64,000 bases of DNA, taken from NCBI GenBank assembly GCA_003246265.1, contig QKAU01000067.1, positions 124,001-188,000 of the forward strand, written 5' to 3'. The translations under genes and the position numbers were made by a program. Under the pieces are notes generated by a model. It saw nothing but the letters and a program-made list of their open reading frames with translations, was not told the origin of the DNA and did no database searches. Source of the DNA: Kiritimatiellales bacterium (GTDB lineage: Bacteria; Verrucomicrobiota; Kiritimatiellia; Kiritimatiellales; Pontiellaceae). Positions 56,644 to 64,000 of this stretch are shown here, piece by piece (positions within the stretch are counted from its first letter, which is position 1; each line of letters opens with the position of its first letter).

Positions 56644-59600
56644 CTAAGGCAGCTCGGGCACGACGCGGAAGTACATGGCATCCTTGTCGCCGCCCCAGAC
56701 CTGGTGCTCGGACTCGTCATAGTCCGGGTTGGCGGTCGGGTAGGTCGTTTCCTCATCCCACGCCGCCACCCAGGTCCCGTCGATCAGGTTGGTGCACCAT
56801 TCCGCACGGTAGACGATGCCGGGATTGTCGTGGGCCACCGCCGGATGGTAGAGGCTGACCACGCTGTTGGAGTGGTAGGCCATGCCGATGCCCATCGCCT
56901 TCACGCCCGGATTGGTCGGGTTGCCGCCCATGGCGAATTCGTAGAGGTCCGAATCGCCGTCGCCGTCGCTGTCATGGCCCGGGATGCCGTTGAGCCCAAA
57001 CTCGACGATGAACTGCTTCCAGGCTGAGCCGCCGCCGAGGTTTTCGCCGATGAACGAGAACCGGTCGATCTTGCGGTTCCTTGCCTGGGCGTTGGAGTCG
57101 GACTGCCCGCAGCCGAATCCGCCGTAGAGGGTCGTGGCGGCATACAGGCCCGCATGGGTAATGCCCGTGGCGGTATAGTTGAGCAGCGGCGTGGAGGCCG
57201 TCGGGTCCGCATCCAGGTTGTACAGCTTGGTCGTCATCGCCCAATCGGTAGCCGTGGCGCCGCGCGTCAGGGTCGCCGTCATCATCAGCAGGGCGCTGTT
57301 GGTGTCGCCGCCCGCGATATCGATGCCGATCGAGGCCGGCGAGGTCCGCGGCGACTCGAGGCCCAGTTGGGAATACCAGCCGGTCCCTTCGAGGCCGATG
57401 TAGTAGCCGGCCGCGAAGTCGCGGTTGATGGAGGCCTTGAGTCGTTCAGCCGTGGCGGCGTTCGATGAGCTGTAGAAGCCGATGTTCATGAGAGGCTTCT
57501 TCACCGCCGTGGAGAGGTCGGTGAAGCTGAAGACCATCGTGACGGTGAACGCATCCTGGTTGTAGGGCACGCCCTGGCTGTAGGCGGTGTGCTCGTAGCC
57601 GAGCGGGTCGATGACGGCCCAGCCGGATCCGGCGGCATCCGCGACCAGGGGGTTCTTCTCGCTGGTCCAGTCCGCATGGGTTTTCAGGCTGCCGTTGGCA
57701 TACCCCTCCGCCGTGGTGAAGTGCACGATGTTGGTCGATGCCGGCGGCGAGACGGCGAGCGCAACGGCGATGTTCAGCGTGGCCATGTCCATCGCGCCCA
57801 GCTGGTCCTCGACCATCACGGTGAAGGCATTCGGTCCAACGTCGCCCGCGCCCGGCGTGCCGGAGAGCGTACCGTTGGCCGCGACGTTCAGCCAACCTGG
57901 GCCGGCCACCTTGGAATAGGCCAGCGCGTTGCCGGCGTTGGCATCGGTGGCCATGCCGTCCAGCGAGCCGGCGTAGGCCGTACCCTCGGTGGCGGCAGGC
58001 AGGTTGATCGGATCCGCGGAGAAGGCCGGCGGCGCGTTGCTCGCCACATCGAGGGCCAGTGTGGCGATGTCGTGCGCCAGCCAGGAATCCTCGACCTTGA
58101 CCGTGAAGGCGTTGGGTCCGACATCCCCCGCGCCCGGCGTGCCCGAGAGCGTTCCGTTGGGAGCGACGCTCAGCCATGCCGGACCGTCGACCTTGGAATA
58201 GGTCAGCACGTCGTCCGGATTCACGTCGGCGGCGCTGCCGTCGATGGTTCCGGTGTAGGCGACCCCTTCCGTGGCGAACGGCAGGTTGATCGGATCGGTG
58301 TTGAAGGCCGGCGGGGAATTGATCTCGATCAGCAGTTCGGGCCGGCTGCCTGCGGCGGCTTCGCGCGAGGCGTACTTGACCAGCCCCGGATCGGCGCTGG
58401 AGAGCACGAACGACGCGACCTGGTCGCCAGCCATTTCGGCGAACACCTGGGCGGTCACATCCAGTTCGATCCAGCCCGTAGCCGCCGGTGTTGCGCTGTC
58501 CATGACCGCGCCTGCGGCAGGCTTGTTGCTCCAAGTGAGGGTGGTCTCGCCCCAGTTGTCGTCGGCGACGGCCTGCAGGGTATGCGCACCGCCGGTGCCG
58601 TAGTTCTCGGCCACCTTCAGCCGCAGCGTGACCTTGTCCATCGTGTTGGTGTCGAGCGAGGAGAGGTCGAACCGCAGGTAGGCCATGCGGGTGAAGGATT
58701 CGTTGCCGGGATCGGCCTTGCAGAGCAGTTCGGCGGCGGTGCCGAAGTTGTCGCCCGCAAAACTCCCGCCCTGGACGTAGGCGTCGGCGACGGGATTGAG
58801 CTTGTCGCTCACGGAGGGGCTTTCATCCACCGCGATGTAGAGTGCGGCGGTGTCGAATGCCCCCTCGGGATCCTGGACACGGACGATGAACTCGTTCAGG
58901 CCGACGTCGTCGAGTCCCGGGATGCCGGAGAGGACGCCGCTGGCGGCAATGTTCAACCAGGCCGGGCCGGCCACCTTGGAATAGGTGAGGACGTCCGTGG
59001 CGTTGAGGTCGAAGGCCGAACCGGTGAGGGTGTCGTTGTACTCCTGCGTGGCCGTCGCGTTCGCCCGCGCCATGCTGTTGGTGGTGAACGCCGGCGCCAC
59101 GTTGCCCGACAGGGTGAAGGCGTCCACGTCTACGACCATCGTGTTGCTGATGGTCGTCCCGCCCGAAGTGGCGGCGAGCTGCAGGGTGTAGAGCCCGGGG
59201 CCGCCCGTGATGAGCGCGGCGGTGTCTTCGGCCGTGGCATCCGTGAACTGGACCGAGCCGGGACCCTGGACGAACGACCACTGCACCGTGTAGGGCGCGG
59301 CCATGAGCACCGTGCCGTCGAGGGTGACATAGACCTGGTTGCCCTCTTGCGGGAGGTTGACCGCCTGGTCGGGACCGGCATCGACGGCACTTCCTACGAG
59401 GACCGCCCAGTCAAGGGAGCTGTCCGCCGGTGGATTGCCGATCGACACGGTGGAGCCACCCGTCACGGAGGTGATGGATCCCTGGATCAGGGTGCCGCCG
59501 TCGCGCGGGTTGAACCAGTAGACGGGAAAGGTGCCGCTTGCGCCGGAGAGGTTCAGCGTGGTGGTGCCGCCGTTGGCCAGGTAGATCGCGTAGACCTGGC

Positions 59601-59820
59601 CCGCCTTGGCGAAGCAGTACTTGTCGTTGTTGTTGCCGGTGTTGCCGATGAGGCCGTTCGCGTTTGCCATCTCCGCAAAGGGGAGGTAGGCGTTGAAGAA
59701 GTGCTTGGCGTGGCGGCAGTAGTCCCACATCCGGTTGCGGCTGCGGTAGTCCTCCATCTCGAGGTCGTTCTCGACCATGCTGTAGCCGGCGTAGAGCTCG
59801 GCGCCGGCCCCGCCCGCCAT
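56644..59820 (-). CDS. C-terminal part of a frameshifted secreted glycosidase: Ig-like repeats, DNRLRE (CBM96-like) domain and Ca-binding tail
   Basis: 1058 codons from ATG 59820, but homology clearly begins before: the frame upstream reads [10 protein letters not shown], the usual barrel continuation of the neighbouring DUF5060 protein. So this is the 3' part of that gene after a one-base loss. Domains: end of barrel, PKD-like (about 150-235), an Ig/cadherin-like repeat (about 240-330, TYSKVAGPAWLNI), DNRLRE/CBM96-like domain (about 340-500, MAYLRFDLSSLD, SRPELLIEI), two more Ig repeats with LSGTPGAGDVGPNAFTV, a LamG-like region, and DSDGDGDSDLYEF, a thrombospondin-3-type Ca loop. Secreted or surface exposed if joined to the upstream signal peptide. 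No good ribosome site at 59820. Confidence 0.75.
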   Translation of the reverse strand: MAGGAGAELYAGYSMVENDLEMEDYRSRNRMWDYCRHAKHFFNAYLPFAEMANANGLIGNTGNNNDKYCFAKAGQVYAIYLANGGTTTLNLSGASGTFPVYWFNPRDGGTLIQGSITSVTGGSTVSIGNPPADSSLDWAVLVGSAVDAGPDQAVNLPQEGNQVYVTLDGTVLMAAPYTVQWSFVQGPGSVQFTDATAEDTAALITGGPGLYTLQLAATSGGTTISNTMVVDVDAFTLSGNVAPAFTTNSMARANATATQEYNDTLTGSAFDLNATDVLTYSKVAGPAWLNIAASGVLSGIPGLDDVGLNEFIVRVQDPEGAFDTAALYIAVDESPSVSDKLNPVADAYVQGGSFAGDNFGTAAELLCKADPGNESFTRMAYLRFDLSSLDTNTMDKVTLRLKVAENYGTGGAHTLQAVADDNWGETTLTWSNKPAAGAVMDSATPAATGWIELDVTAQVFAEMAGDQVASFVLSSADPGLVKYASREAAAGSRPELLIEINSPPAFNTDPINLPFATEGVAYTGTIDGSAADVNPDDVLTYSKVDGPAWLSVAPNGTLSGTPGAGDVGPNAFTVKVEDSWLAHDIATLALDVASNAPPAFSADPINLPAATEGTAYAGSLDGMATDANAGNALAYSKVAGPGWLNVAANGTLSGTPGAGDVGPNAFTVMVEDQLGAMDMATLNIAVALAVSPPASTNIVHFTTAEGYANGSLKTHADWTSEKNPLVADAAGSGWAVIDPLGYEHTAYSQGVPYNQDAFTVTMVFSFTDLSTAVKKPLMNIGFYSSSNAATAERLKASINRDFAAGYYIGLEGTGWYSQLGLESPRTSPASIGIDIAGGDTNSALLMMTATLTRGATATDWAMTTKLYNLDADPTASTPLLNYTATGITHAGLYAATTLYGGFGCGQSDSNAQARNRKIDRFSFIGENLGGGSAWKQFIVEFGLNGIPGHDSDGDGDSDLYEFAMGGNPTNPGVKAMGIGMAYHSNSVVSLYHPAVAHDNPGIVYRAEWCTNLIDGTWVAAWDEETTYPTANPDYDESEHQVWGGDKDAMYFRVVPELP

Positions 59821-62255
59821 CAGGTTGCCCCAGGGGTGGTTCCGCCGGGATAGCCGGGATAGCCGTCGTCCGGTGGGTTGGCCCAGAGAGCCGAGCCCTG
59901 TTCATCGTTGGCCACGATCCACGGGCGCCCGGCGGCGGTCGATTCCGCGATCCACTGGAGGGTCTCCCCGTGGACGGCGGAATAGTTGATCTGGATCGAG
60001 CAGCCGGTCAGCTTGGAATTGCTGCCCAGCAGCGGCCGGTAGACGGACTCCTGGCCGTCGGGAAGGGTATGGAGCACGATGTTGTTCCCGTAAGGGTCGT
60101 GGTCGTGGAAGTACTGGGCCATCTGCTGCTGCTGGAGCGTGGTCTGTCCGTTTTCCTCGCCGAGGTTCCAGTTGAGCGCCAGGTGGTGGCCGAAACGCGC
60201 GATCAGCTCGCGATAGTAGAGCTTGCGCTCGATGCCGAGATCCCCGCCGTCCAGCCCGTAGGAGCCGTTGTCGTTCTCCATCTCCTGCGTCTTGAAGTGC
60301 TTGTACAGGCCCTTGGTGTCGGCATGCGAGAAGACGATTTCCCACTGGTCGAGCTTGGAGCAGTCGTATTGCAGGCGCTTGTTGTAGTCGATGAAGGGCC
60401 AGACGTTGCGGCCGTCGCCGCCGACGTTGTAGGTGAGGAACGAGAAGACGTTCATCTCTTCGGAGGCGAGGTAGTTGAGCGCACCGATCATCCCCTTGCC
60501 CTTGCCGTCCATCCAGGCCGGATCGCCGGTCTTCCAGTCCTGGACGTGGGGGCCCCACGTCTTCATGAACTGCTTGGCGGGGTCGTACCCGTAGGTGCCG
60601 TCGAAGTCGTTGTAGCCTAGGAAGGTCTCGGGGGCGTCGGAACCGGTCTTGATAAAGGCTTCGCCGGTTTCGGCATGCTTGAGGTAGCGGGTGCCGTCGT
60701 AGACCAGGCGGCCCTTGCCGCGCAGGTCGGCTCCACCCTTGTCGGTCGCAACCACGACGAAGAATCCGCTCGCGCCGTCGAAGCCGGTCGCGGTGCCGGC
60801 GGTGGGCGCGTCGTCGACCGCCACGTTGGTTCCGGTGCGGAAGGAGGCGGTGTAGTTCCATGTGCCGGTTTCATCCGGCGCGAAGTGGACGCGCCAGATG
60901 CGGCCCGTGGTGGCGCCGGTCTCGCCGGCGTTGCCGTCGGCGGCGTAGTAGCCGGGAACCTTGTAGCTCTTGCCGCTGCCCGGATGGGTGAAGGCCACGT
61001 CGAGGCGGTAGTTGGTGAAGGGGTTGGGGTTCGCGGTCTCGGAGGTGCTGGGCCCTTCGAAGGCGATGCTGACCTTGTGCCACTTCTTGAAGCTTCCGCC
61101 GGGGGAGCGCTCGCCGTAGATGCCGGCGGTCGGCGTGTTTTCGGCGGCGGAGGGCGGCGGGGGGGCTTCGGCGGCGACCAGCTGGATCTGCCGCCAGCGG
61201 CCGCGCGACCAGGCGAAGCCGCCGCTTTCCGGGATCAATCCGTTCGAGTGGGTGTCGGATTCGATGGCGAGGATATCGCCGGCGTTGATGACGATGTTGC
61301 TCCAGGTATGGAGATGGGGCTGGCTGTCGCCGGCGGCACCGACCCGCGGGTTCTGGTAGGTGGCGGCCTGCGAGCCGTTGACCAGCAGGTGGTAGGTCGA
61401 TTCGCCATCCTCTTCGGTGAGGGTGGTGATGGTGACGTTGAAGTTTCCGGATGCGCCGCCGTAGGTGAGCTGCGCCCGGGCGAACTTGCCCCGGTACGAG
61501 GTGTTGGCCGCGTTGATGGCCAGCGCATTGCGGGCGGCATCGACGTAGTAGGGCACTTCTCCTGCCGTGATGTTCGGGAAGTCGTTGGTGGCGCGGTAGA
61601 CGCCGGGGATGGCGCCGTCGGTGGCCGATTCGGGCATCGCGTTCACGGTGCTTTCGTTGAACGCGAGGTCGCTGCGGTAGATCACCATGCGGTCGATCGC
61701 ATGGCCCGGCGAGCGGGCCGCCAGCTCGATGGCATGCGTGCCCGGACTGTAGTGGCGGATTGCAACGTTGTAGTATTGGTCGCCGTACGAGGGCTCGAAG
61801 GCGGTGCGCCAGTCCCATGCGGTCTTGTTCTGGACCCAGACCTTGGTGAAGTTGCCGAAGTCGTAGTAGCCGGCGACCGGTGTGCCGGAGGCGAACCGCA
61901 CGAAGGTGTCGTTGCCCGCATCCCCGGCCCCCACATCGTTGTACTGCTTGGTGCGCCAGCGGAAGAAGTAGTCGCCCTCGGTGGAGATGTTGAATTCATA
62001 GCGGATCACGGCTTCGACCGCCGAAGGCAGGCGGGTGTTGCCCGAGAACTGTGCTCCGGTCCACTCCAGCCAGCCATCCCCCAGGCTGCCCGCCATGGTG
62101 GCGTCGGTCGTGTAGGTCGACGGCCGGGTGATCCAATCGTCCACGATCTGGCCGTGTTCGGCCTCCATCACGACGTAGCCGCCGCTTTCCAGCCACGCGG
62201 CCGGCGCCCAGGTCGCCGCTGCGCAGCACATGAGTGCAATCCATCCCTTTTTCAT
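59820..62255 (-). CDS. N-terminal part of a frameshifted secreted glycosidase: binding modules, DUF5060 and DUF4038-like barrel
   Basis: 811 aa from ATG 62255 (AAGGAG upstream, signal peptide to about 22). Residues 23-215 are a CBM-like domain ([17 protein letters not shown]); 220-370 the 'EDGES' module ([28 protein letters not shown]) shared with the protein at 44350; 390-500 DUF5060 ([24 protein letters not shown]); then a TIM-barrel part ([33 protein letters not shown]). The frame stops early at 59820 with PGGTTPGAT, inside the barrel. The next frame resumes correctly, so the gene is split. It begins 1 bp after the FecR stop. Confidence 0.8.
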
Positions 62256-62256
62256 C

Positions 62257-63564
62257 CTATTCTCCTTGTTGTTCTCCATTCCCCACCACGAGGATCAGAC
62301 GCGGAGGCGTCTCCCCCTCCGACGAATAGAACCAGAAGTCGTCGCCGCCCTTGTCCATCTCGATGACCAGGACATTCATCCCGTCCCGGATGGCGGCCGG
62401 ATCGATCTCCAGTTCCAAATCTTTTCCCTGTTCCATGGTGCCGGTGTAGTGCGCCACCTCGGAGCCCGCGGTCCGGACGTTGCGTGAGATTTCCCACCCC
62501 GGAGCCCCCGTGTCGGGCATCGCGTAGATCCGCAGGGTGCCGGCCCCTCCCCAGTCCGAATCCTTGTGGGCAATGCGCAGCCGCAGGGTGGCGCGGGAAA
62601 CCATCCCGCCGAGCGGGCCCAGATCGAACTTCAGCAACCCGGAGAGGTTGCGTTTCGGGTCGATGCCGATGAAGTCCTGGTCGATGCCCCGGCGATGGTG
62701 GATGGTTTCGTCATAGGTTGGCGTATGTACGGCGGTCTGCGCGCGGGCATCGTTGTACAACCGGGCGGCCGCCGTGTCCGCCGCCATGCCGGCCGAGACC
62801 TCCGTCGAAGAGCCGTCGAGATGGTTGATAAAGCGGACGCATCCCGAGTGCACCAGCAACTGCGTGAACTCCTCCACCAGCAGCTCGAAGGAGGTCCCGA
62901 TCACGATGGCCTCGGCATCCTTGCTGACGAGCCGCATCGGCCGGTCGGGTTGCTGTTTGGCCACCTGGGCGAACAGGTGGCCGCGGGTTAGGCGGATCTT
63001 CTTCGCGCCGCCATTGTCGTACACCGAGAAGACGGTGCTTTCCGCCAGGTCGAGACGGGTTCCGTCATCCACGTACCGCAGCGACATCCGGGATGAGGCC
63101 GGCACGACGATGTAGTCGCCATCCCACACGGATGCGCCCGGCTCCAGGGTGCGCCGCCGTCCCTCGTTGATGGCATAGGCCTGCGAATCCGCGGATATGG
63201 CGAGGTCATCGATCTTGGCCACGACGGTTTTCTGGAGGACCAGCGCGGAGAAACCGTGCCTGACCTCCGTCCGGGTGGAGAGATAGAGGGTCCCCATCGT
63301 CAGGAGGATCGCGGCGGCGGCGGCGATCCTGCGGAATTTTGCCGCCTGCCGGTGCCGGGGTTCGAAATGGAGGATCTGCGCGGCCTGGGCGTGCCGGACA
63401 TGGTGCAGCAGCCACTCCTCGCCCGAGGCGTCCATGAAACGGCCGCGCAGGTCCGGATCGGCGTCGAGTCCTGCCTGGAGTTCCGCGATCTCCTCCGGGG
63501 CAAGGTCCCTGAGGTAGTACTCTTCGACCAGGTGTACCAGTCGTTTATCGGTGCGATGGGTCAC
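62257..63564 (-). CDS. FecR-type anti-sigma factor with C-terminal DNRLRE/CBM96-like domain
   Basis: 435 aa from a GTG at 63564 that overlaps the sigma TGA (GTGA), with AGGAGG upstream. Residues 1-75 are cytoplasmic (ZAS-like, [25 protein letters not shown]); about 79-96 is one membrane helix; FecR domain about 130-275 ([34 protein letters not shown]). Residues 285-430 look like a DNRLRE/CBM96 domain ([42 protein letters not shown]). Usual FecR proteins lack this tail. The periplasmic part is thus a candidate glycan sensor that releases the sigma factor. Confidence 0.88.
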
Positions 63565-64000
63565 AGGACCTCCTGGTGCTCGAGCTGCTCCTCGACGCAG
63601 TGCCGCAAGGCGTTCTTGAGCCGCTTGAGGAGGGCATAGATGCTTTGGACGGAGTGGTGCAGGTCGCCGGCGATCCGCGAACAGTCCATTCCCTGTCCAT
63701 ATCGCAGTTCGACGATCCGCCGCTGGCGGGCGGGCAGCTTTCCGAGGCACAGGTTGAGGGCCTGCTGCCGCCGGGAGATGCCCTGGGGCTCGAACAAGCG
63801 GGCGTGGGGAAGGCACTCGGCGATCGTGTCGAAGCGCAGCGTGGCCGCCTCGCGCCCCTGTGCCTCGCGCCATTTCAGGATCTTGTTCCGGGCAATGCCC
63901 AGCAGCCAGGGATGGAGCGGCCGCTCCTCGTCGAATCCGGCCGCCTTCTGGGCCACGACGATGGCGACATCCTGCAGGATCTCCTCGGTCGCGTGGTAGT
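63561..64000 (-). CDS. ECF-type RNA polymerase sigma factor, 5' end outside the window
   Basis: At least 145 residues, open to the window edge, so the start is missing. Region 2: HATEEILQDVAIVVAQKA and LHPWLLGIARNKILKWRE. Region 4: CLGKLPARQRRIVELRYGQGMDCSRIAGDL with helix-turn-helix, then SVQSIYALLKRLKNALRHCVEEQ. This is the planctomycete/Rhodopirellula-type ECF group found with FecR-like anti-sigmas. Translation is coupled to the anti-sigma gene. The predicted target is the operon itself, including the giant glycosidase. Confidence 0.9.
   Translation of the reverse strand, partial: YHATEEILQDVAIVVAQKAAGFDEERPLHPWLLGIARNKILKWREAQGREAATLRFDTIAECLPHARLFEPQGISRRQQALNLCLGKLPARQRRIVELRYGQGMDCSRIAGDLHHSVQSIYALLKRLKNALRHCVEEQLEHQEVL

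Follow-up and report, generated by a model that had tools for sequence, protein, structure and literature searches.

A sigma/FecR-type anti-sigma pair with a CBM96/CBM100-like tail beside a secreted glycosidase in Pontiella, a candidate glycan switch

The closest described counterpart of the system reported here is SigI/RsgI of Clostridium thermocellum, in which a sigma factor and a membrane anti-sigma factor are encoded in one operon, the anti-sigma factor RsgI is composed of a cytoplasmic inhibitor, a transmembrane segment, a self-cleaving extracytoplasmic domain and a C-terminal carbohydrate-binding sensor, and the pair controls glycosidases under autoregulation (PMC12203970, PMC6056542). 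The sensor domains of RsgI proteins are directed at cellulose, arabinose, pectin or xylan (PMC12203970). Cell-surface signalling of the FecI/FecR/FecA and FoxR type likewise involves a sigma/anti-sigma gene pair, a FecR beta domain and a Gly-Thr dipeptide, and the Gly-Thr pairs of E. coli FecR and FoxR are non-enzymatic self-cleavage sites (PMC9249621). Planctomycetes-Verrucomicrobia degraders possess many sulfatases and glycosidases, but little is known of how they sense polysaccharides, and the only regulators named in the Pontiella genome papers that we searched were two-component neighbours and TonB transporters.

In the window, the stretch of 64,000 nucleotides analysed here (G000:C72:124001-188000, from the 3.0-Mb genome, in 81 contigs, of a marine polysaccharide degrader of the Pontiella group), the minus strand carries an ECF sigma gene, followed by a gene for a FecR-type anti-sigma factor and then by a gene for a secreted DUF5060 glycosidase. 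The sigma product of 176 aa (complete gene L002:11561-12091) scored 139.1 bits against TIGR02989 (Sig-70_gvs1, the ECF gvs1 subfamily), above the cut-off of 124.55; its gene starts at about 64091 in window coordinates, beyond the window edge, so that the window holds only the 3' three-quarters (63561..64000). The anti-sigma factor, of 435 aa, starts with GTG (62257..63564), and its start overlaps the sigma stop by 4 nt (GTGA). Only 2 nt separate the FecR stop from the glycosidase start, which reads ATGAAAAAGGG..., lies behind AAGGAG and is typical of a signal peptide. A GH97 gene follows the cluster and a GH3-like gene, assigned from reading its ORF, precedes it. Thus, sigma factor, membrane anti-sigma factor and secreted DUF5060 glycosidase form a single tightly packed cluster. 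The original prediction had placed the pair at 62257-64000; strand, order and the overlapping or abutting arrangement were confirmed, but with the FecR start at GTG 63564 and the sigma start outside the window, FecR plus sigma occupy 62257-64091.

The glycosidase itself departs from the co-transcribed giant enzyme that had been anticipated. It is secreted and lies directly downstream, but it is broken into two ORFs: a 5' part with a likely ATG at 62255, a signal peptide, PF16586 (81 bits) and GH115_C (59820..62255, minus strand), and a 3' part with collagen-bind_2, PKD, Ig repeats and CBM96 (56644..59901, minus strand; open frame L002:4644-7901). Comparison with the C60 paralogue placed the absence of 31 nt, and with it the frameshift, at 59828..59838 (about 59832). 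This deletion is either a true mutation or an assembly error of the MAG; in the first case the enzyme may be lost from the window operon, with C60 still intact, and the second case has no consequence. A phmmer search of the glycosidase against the PDB gave no match, and its CBM96/DNRLRE domain (58324..58803, minus strand; PF24517, 133 bits) is of a general subtype.

The N-terminal parts of the anti-sigma factor resemble those of known FecR proteins. Residues 4-46 (63427..63555, minus strand) are predicted to form cytoplasmic anti-sigma helices, which the full-length model places at 4-15, 23-35 and 37-46 with moderate to low confidence, and a transmembrane helix is predicted at residues ~77-98 (63271..63336, minus strand) from a hydrophobic stretch and a modelled helix 72-98 of low confidence. 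Residues 114-263 (62776..63225, minus strand) form a periplasmic FecR beta domain, which Foldseek matched to PupR (6ovk) and a Parabacteroides anti-sigma factor (4m0h) with an rmsd of ~2 Å over 114-118 columns. PF04773 was matched at residues 152-243 with 37.1 bits (cut-off 24), as it was in all 12 members of the family, and the 11 homologues of the window FecR align at full length with 32-41% identity. In an HMM alignment to K-12 FecR, Gly223-Thr224 (62893..62898, minus strand) is in register with E. coli FecR Gly181-Thr182, and this dipeptide is invariant in all 12 homologues; as judged from the alignment, it is the equivalent of the E. coli self-cleavage site. The RsgI domain was absent from the cluster proteins in Pfam and NCBIfam scans.

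C-terminal to these parts, residues 276-428 (62281..62739, minus strand) were modelled as a CBM96/CBM100-like jelly-roll, a putative sensor domain. The AlphaFold model of this tail (pLDDT 85, pTM 0.82) had its top PDB matches in 8wab (Z 16.7) and 7vbo (Z 14.7), ahead of TGF-beta-type prodomains as the next fold (Z 11.8), so the C-terminal DNRLRE/CBM96-type domain of the original prediction is borne out by the structure model, which resembles that fold above all others. PF24517 (CBM96) matched the window tail only weakly (E 0.011; 16 bits, failing the cut-off of 26), and such a weak match was present in 8 of the 12 family tails, with a best E of 0.003. A profile of seven tails (six from FecR proteins, one from a glycosidase) had 7vbo as its best PDB match (E 0.0019), and an HMM built from the CBM96 domains of glycosidases and small proteins, in which no FecR sequence was included, picked up the window tail with an i-E of 3e-17 in a small database. 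Together, the fold match, the tail profile and the CBM96 HMM identify the tail as a divergent member of the CBM96/CBM100 fold group, and its homology to CBM96 is solid by the three routes of profile, FecR-free HMM and model. The two fold relatives with solved structures are both binders of anionic glycans: 7vbo is the alginate-binding founder of CBM96, in which mutation of R36 abolishes alginate binding (PMC9971899), and 8wab is, by the title of its structure entry, a chondroitin-sulfate-binding module, very probably the CBM100 founder that PMC11943901 cites as its reference 81.

This tail is where the protein departs from FecI/FecR/FecA and FoxR-type signalling, since a CBM-type domain replaces the C-terminal region that contacts the STN domain. 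The genome contains three TonB-dependent receptors, none of them on C72 or C60, so that neither the window locus nor the C60 locus has a linked TonB receptor gene. A search of the genome, which is 96% complete, found an STN domain only in a secretin-like protein; given this completeness, an STN-receptor gene may have been missed. The absence of an intervening TonB receptor, as originally proposed, therefore agrees with both the linkage and the genome search, and with neither a linked receptor nor an STN transducer, direct input to the tail is the simplest idea. A conventional relay, in which an outer-membrane receptor or another partner touches the tail, which would serve as an adaptor for protein binding, could draw on the homology of the FecR domain to TonB-linked FecR/PupR and on the three receptors in the genome, but it has to do without a linked receptor gene at either locus, without a counterpart of the STN-contacting part and with a sole STN that sits in a secretin-like protein. 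We consider such a relay quite unlikely, and TonB-coupled FecIR signalling was set aside for want of an STN transducer in the genome.

To place the tail among its relatives, a tree was made of 39 domains, comprising the 12 FecR tails, CBM96 domains of giant glycosidases, two small CBM proteins and 20 other CBM96 domains (18 from the genomes examined, two from one outside protein). The 12 tails were monophyletic (UFBoot 100), and tails, giant-glycosidase CBM96 domains (C60, G005, G017, G024, G027) and the two small CBM proteins were separated from the 20 others with a UFBoot of 95, the tail/enzyme-subtype split being independent of rooting. The motifs GGNDxWF and GGxGxxR are common to tails and enzyme subtype and are absent from other CBM96 domains. 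The CBM96 domain of the window glycosidase falls in the other group, and the sensor-like subtype is found in the C60 paralogue and in other species. Hence the proposal that anti-sigma factor and glycosidase have a domain of the same type is true inside the window at the level of the superfamily only, the window copy not being the sensor's nearest subtype, and we rejected the narrower claim of the same domain there on the basis of the tree. A general rule that FecR tails in PVC bacteria match their neighbours was also rejected, as of 20 loci it applied to just two, both NPCBM loci and related to each other. In those loci (L153:7343-8779, L154:7833-9182), the NPCBM tails of FecR have counterparts (E 1e-19) in ~1300-aa proteins encoded at a distance of ~3-4 kb, apparently an independent case of sensor and neighbour having a common module.

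The signature common to tail and enzyme domain also bears on a different reading, in which the tail responds not to a nutrient glycan but to a cue from within: a sulfated exopolymer or envelope glycan of the cell itself, or the giant enzyme under export, recognized through its related CBM96. Such a cue would accommodate the sigma/FecR pairs that occur without an enzyme gene and the sulfated glycosaminoglycan-like exopolymers made by Pontiella (PMC7356697). It is at odds with the nearest structural relatives, which are polysaccharide-binding modules of catabolic enzymes, and with the window enzyme, whose CBM96 is of another subtype. Overall, an internal cue appears unlikely, though not negligibly so.

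The residues of the tail suggest a ligand contact of its own. While the GGNDxWF loop conserved in the tails aligns at the N157/Y159 loop of CBM96, the position aligned with R36 holds Arg in 0 of 12 tails, compared with 7 of 7 enzyme-subtype domains and 10 of 20 other CBM96 domains. Since no tail carries Arg at this position, the tail, from its sequence, probably reads its ligand otherwise than CBM96 does. The missing canonical binding Arg, along with the score under the Pfam CBM96 cut-off, would also fit a tail that is a passive remnant of domain capture on a switch answering envelope stress. We regard this as very improbable, because the tail is kept in all 12 copies with D404, D409, W411, G340, G342 and R345 invariant, and the searches for relatives turned up no family member that lacks it.

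In searches that covered 58 relatives, 388 genomes from the phylum and the GTDB contig collection, full-length relatives came from the genus Pontiella only, where 7 of 28 genomes have them, with 12 copies altogether; named loci of the same family are those of Pontiellaceae B1224, B12227 and MAG SZUA-494. Ten loci had enough flank to be evaluated. Downstream of sigma/FecR, the DUF5060 glycosidase follows directly in 6 of these, another secreted PKD protein is present in 1 and no linked target in 3. The order sigma-FecR-glycosidase is repeated in C60, G014, G005, G017 and G024. Counted by genome, 6 of the 7 that have the switch also contain a member of the close glycosidase clade (identity of 60% or more), as against 0 of the 21 that lack it (Fisher p ~2e-5, calculated by hand, with the relatedness of the genomes left uncorrected). 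Two close-clade giant DUF5060 glycosidases (L039, L040) have no adjacent sigma/FecR, and their genomes also contain orphan sigma/FecR pairs (L034, L033). Control in trans of the stand-alone giant enzymes of G024 and G027 by the orphan pairs was considered but not adopted, the one match upstream being a degenerate GACTAA.

Upstream of the sigma gene, nearly all copies have a promoter-like element resembling TGMCTAAT-N~20-TAGGGT, usually at a distance of 54-71 nt from the start; in C60 it takes the variant form TGCCCAAT. Exact TGMCTAAT precedes the sigma gene in 10 of 12 copies, and of its 12 occurrences in 365 kb of strand-bases, 10 are those before sigma and 2 lie downstream of the glycosidase at the same loci. 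Extra two-box elements were seen on the minus strand of L030 at 5275 and of L032 at 10701, downstream of the giant glycosidase and before further genes. In the 3.0-Mb genome of the window, the two-box pattern has one site, before the window's sigma gene. In most of the seven genomes counted, two-box numbers were not above the reversed control, and only the placement stands out; likewise, a genome-wide regulon sought with the loose pattern TTTTNNTGCCTAAT at one mismatch gave no excess over control and was rejected. The element, as a sequence pattern, would fit autoregulation with a very narrow regulon.

Taken together, we lean with modest confidence towards a dedicated, self-contained glycan switch, in which the tail would be the direct sensor and the sigma factor would drive its own operon. 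Without ligand, the N-terminal helices of FecR would hold the sigma factor. In a diderm host the tail lies in the periplasm, which means that it has to bind a fragment present there instead of the intact polymer; oligosaccharide fragments of an anionic polysaccharide would bind the tail directly, taking the place of the STN of a TonB receptor. Precut at Gly-Thr, the FecR domain would then be exposed to periplasmic and RseP-like proteases, and the freed sigma factor would transcribe its own operon, yielding more enzyme and switch together. Growth on sulfated polysaccharides is known for Pontiella strains (PMC6388578). Against the glycan switch count the missing R36 Arg, the 3 of 10 loci without an enzyme, the 1 with another secreted protein and the frameshifted window enzyme, and the pI of the tails, mostly below 7, is unhelpful for an anionic ligand.

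The logic proposed for this switch is that of SigI/RsgI. Different from that system, the sigma factor is of the ECF gvs1 type rather than SigI, a FecR domain with Gly-Thr stands in place of the periplasmic autocleavage domain of RsgI, the tail is of CBM96/CBM100 type rather than CBM3, CBM42 or PA14, and the sensor of this diderm host faces the periplasm. The window FecR would work like an RsgI but is not one. CBM96 (7vbo) and CBM100 (8wab) have the same fold as the tail, which differs from them in having no R36 equivalent, in scoring under the Pfam cut-off and in sitting on a regulator. FecR-NPCBM fusions of the same phylum also carry a carbohydrate-binding-type domain C-terminal to FecR, but the CBM is a different one and the FecR parts are just remotely related. 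Given RsgI anti-sigmas of the same logic and the FecR-NPCBM fusions present elsewhere in the phylum, the system has precedents, and its proposal as a candidate undescribed signalling system was overstated. Among the open-access papers searched, none dealt with FecR joined to LamG, NPCBM or carbohydrate-binding domains; FecR-LamG proteins are presumably present in planctomycete genomes. Two further arrangements were noted: a 759-aa frame (L063:340-2619 / L158:7343-9622) with Sigma70 region 2 and FecR combined in a single chain before a further C-terminal region, possibly a sigma-anti-sigma fusion, and a FecR protein (L054:943-2352) whose C-terminal region weakly matches GH71 (E 0.0036), possibly an inactive-enzyme sensor.

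More tentatively, and a little short of an even chance in our estimation, FecR may have exchanged the input of a TonB receptor for a putative glycan-binding domain of common descent with a module of the enzyme under its control; sensor and enzyme would then read related ligands, RsgI-like logic would have evolved separately in a diderm, with FecR as its scaffold, and the promoter would be used at no more than one or two sites per genome. If true, the anti-sigma factor and the adjoining enzyme would have a shared domain lineage, and the family would offer a testable class of sensor with a built-in clue to its ligand and a candidate promoter. It would also point to more than one origin of glycan-sensing anti-sigmas, out of unrelated parts.
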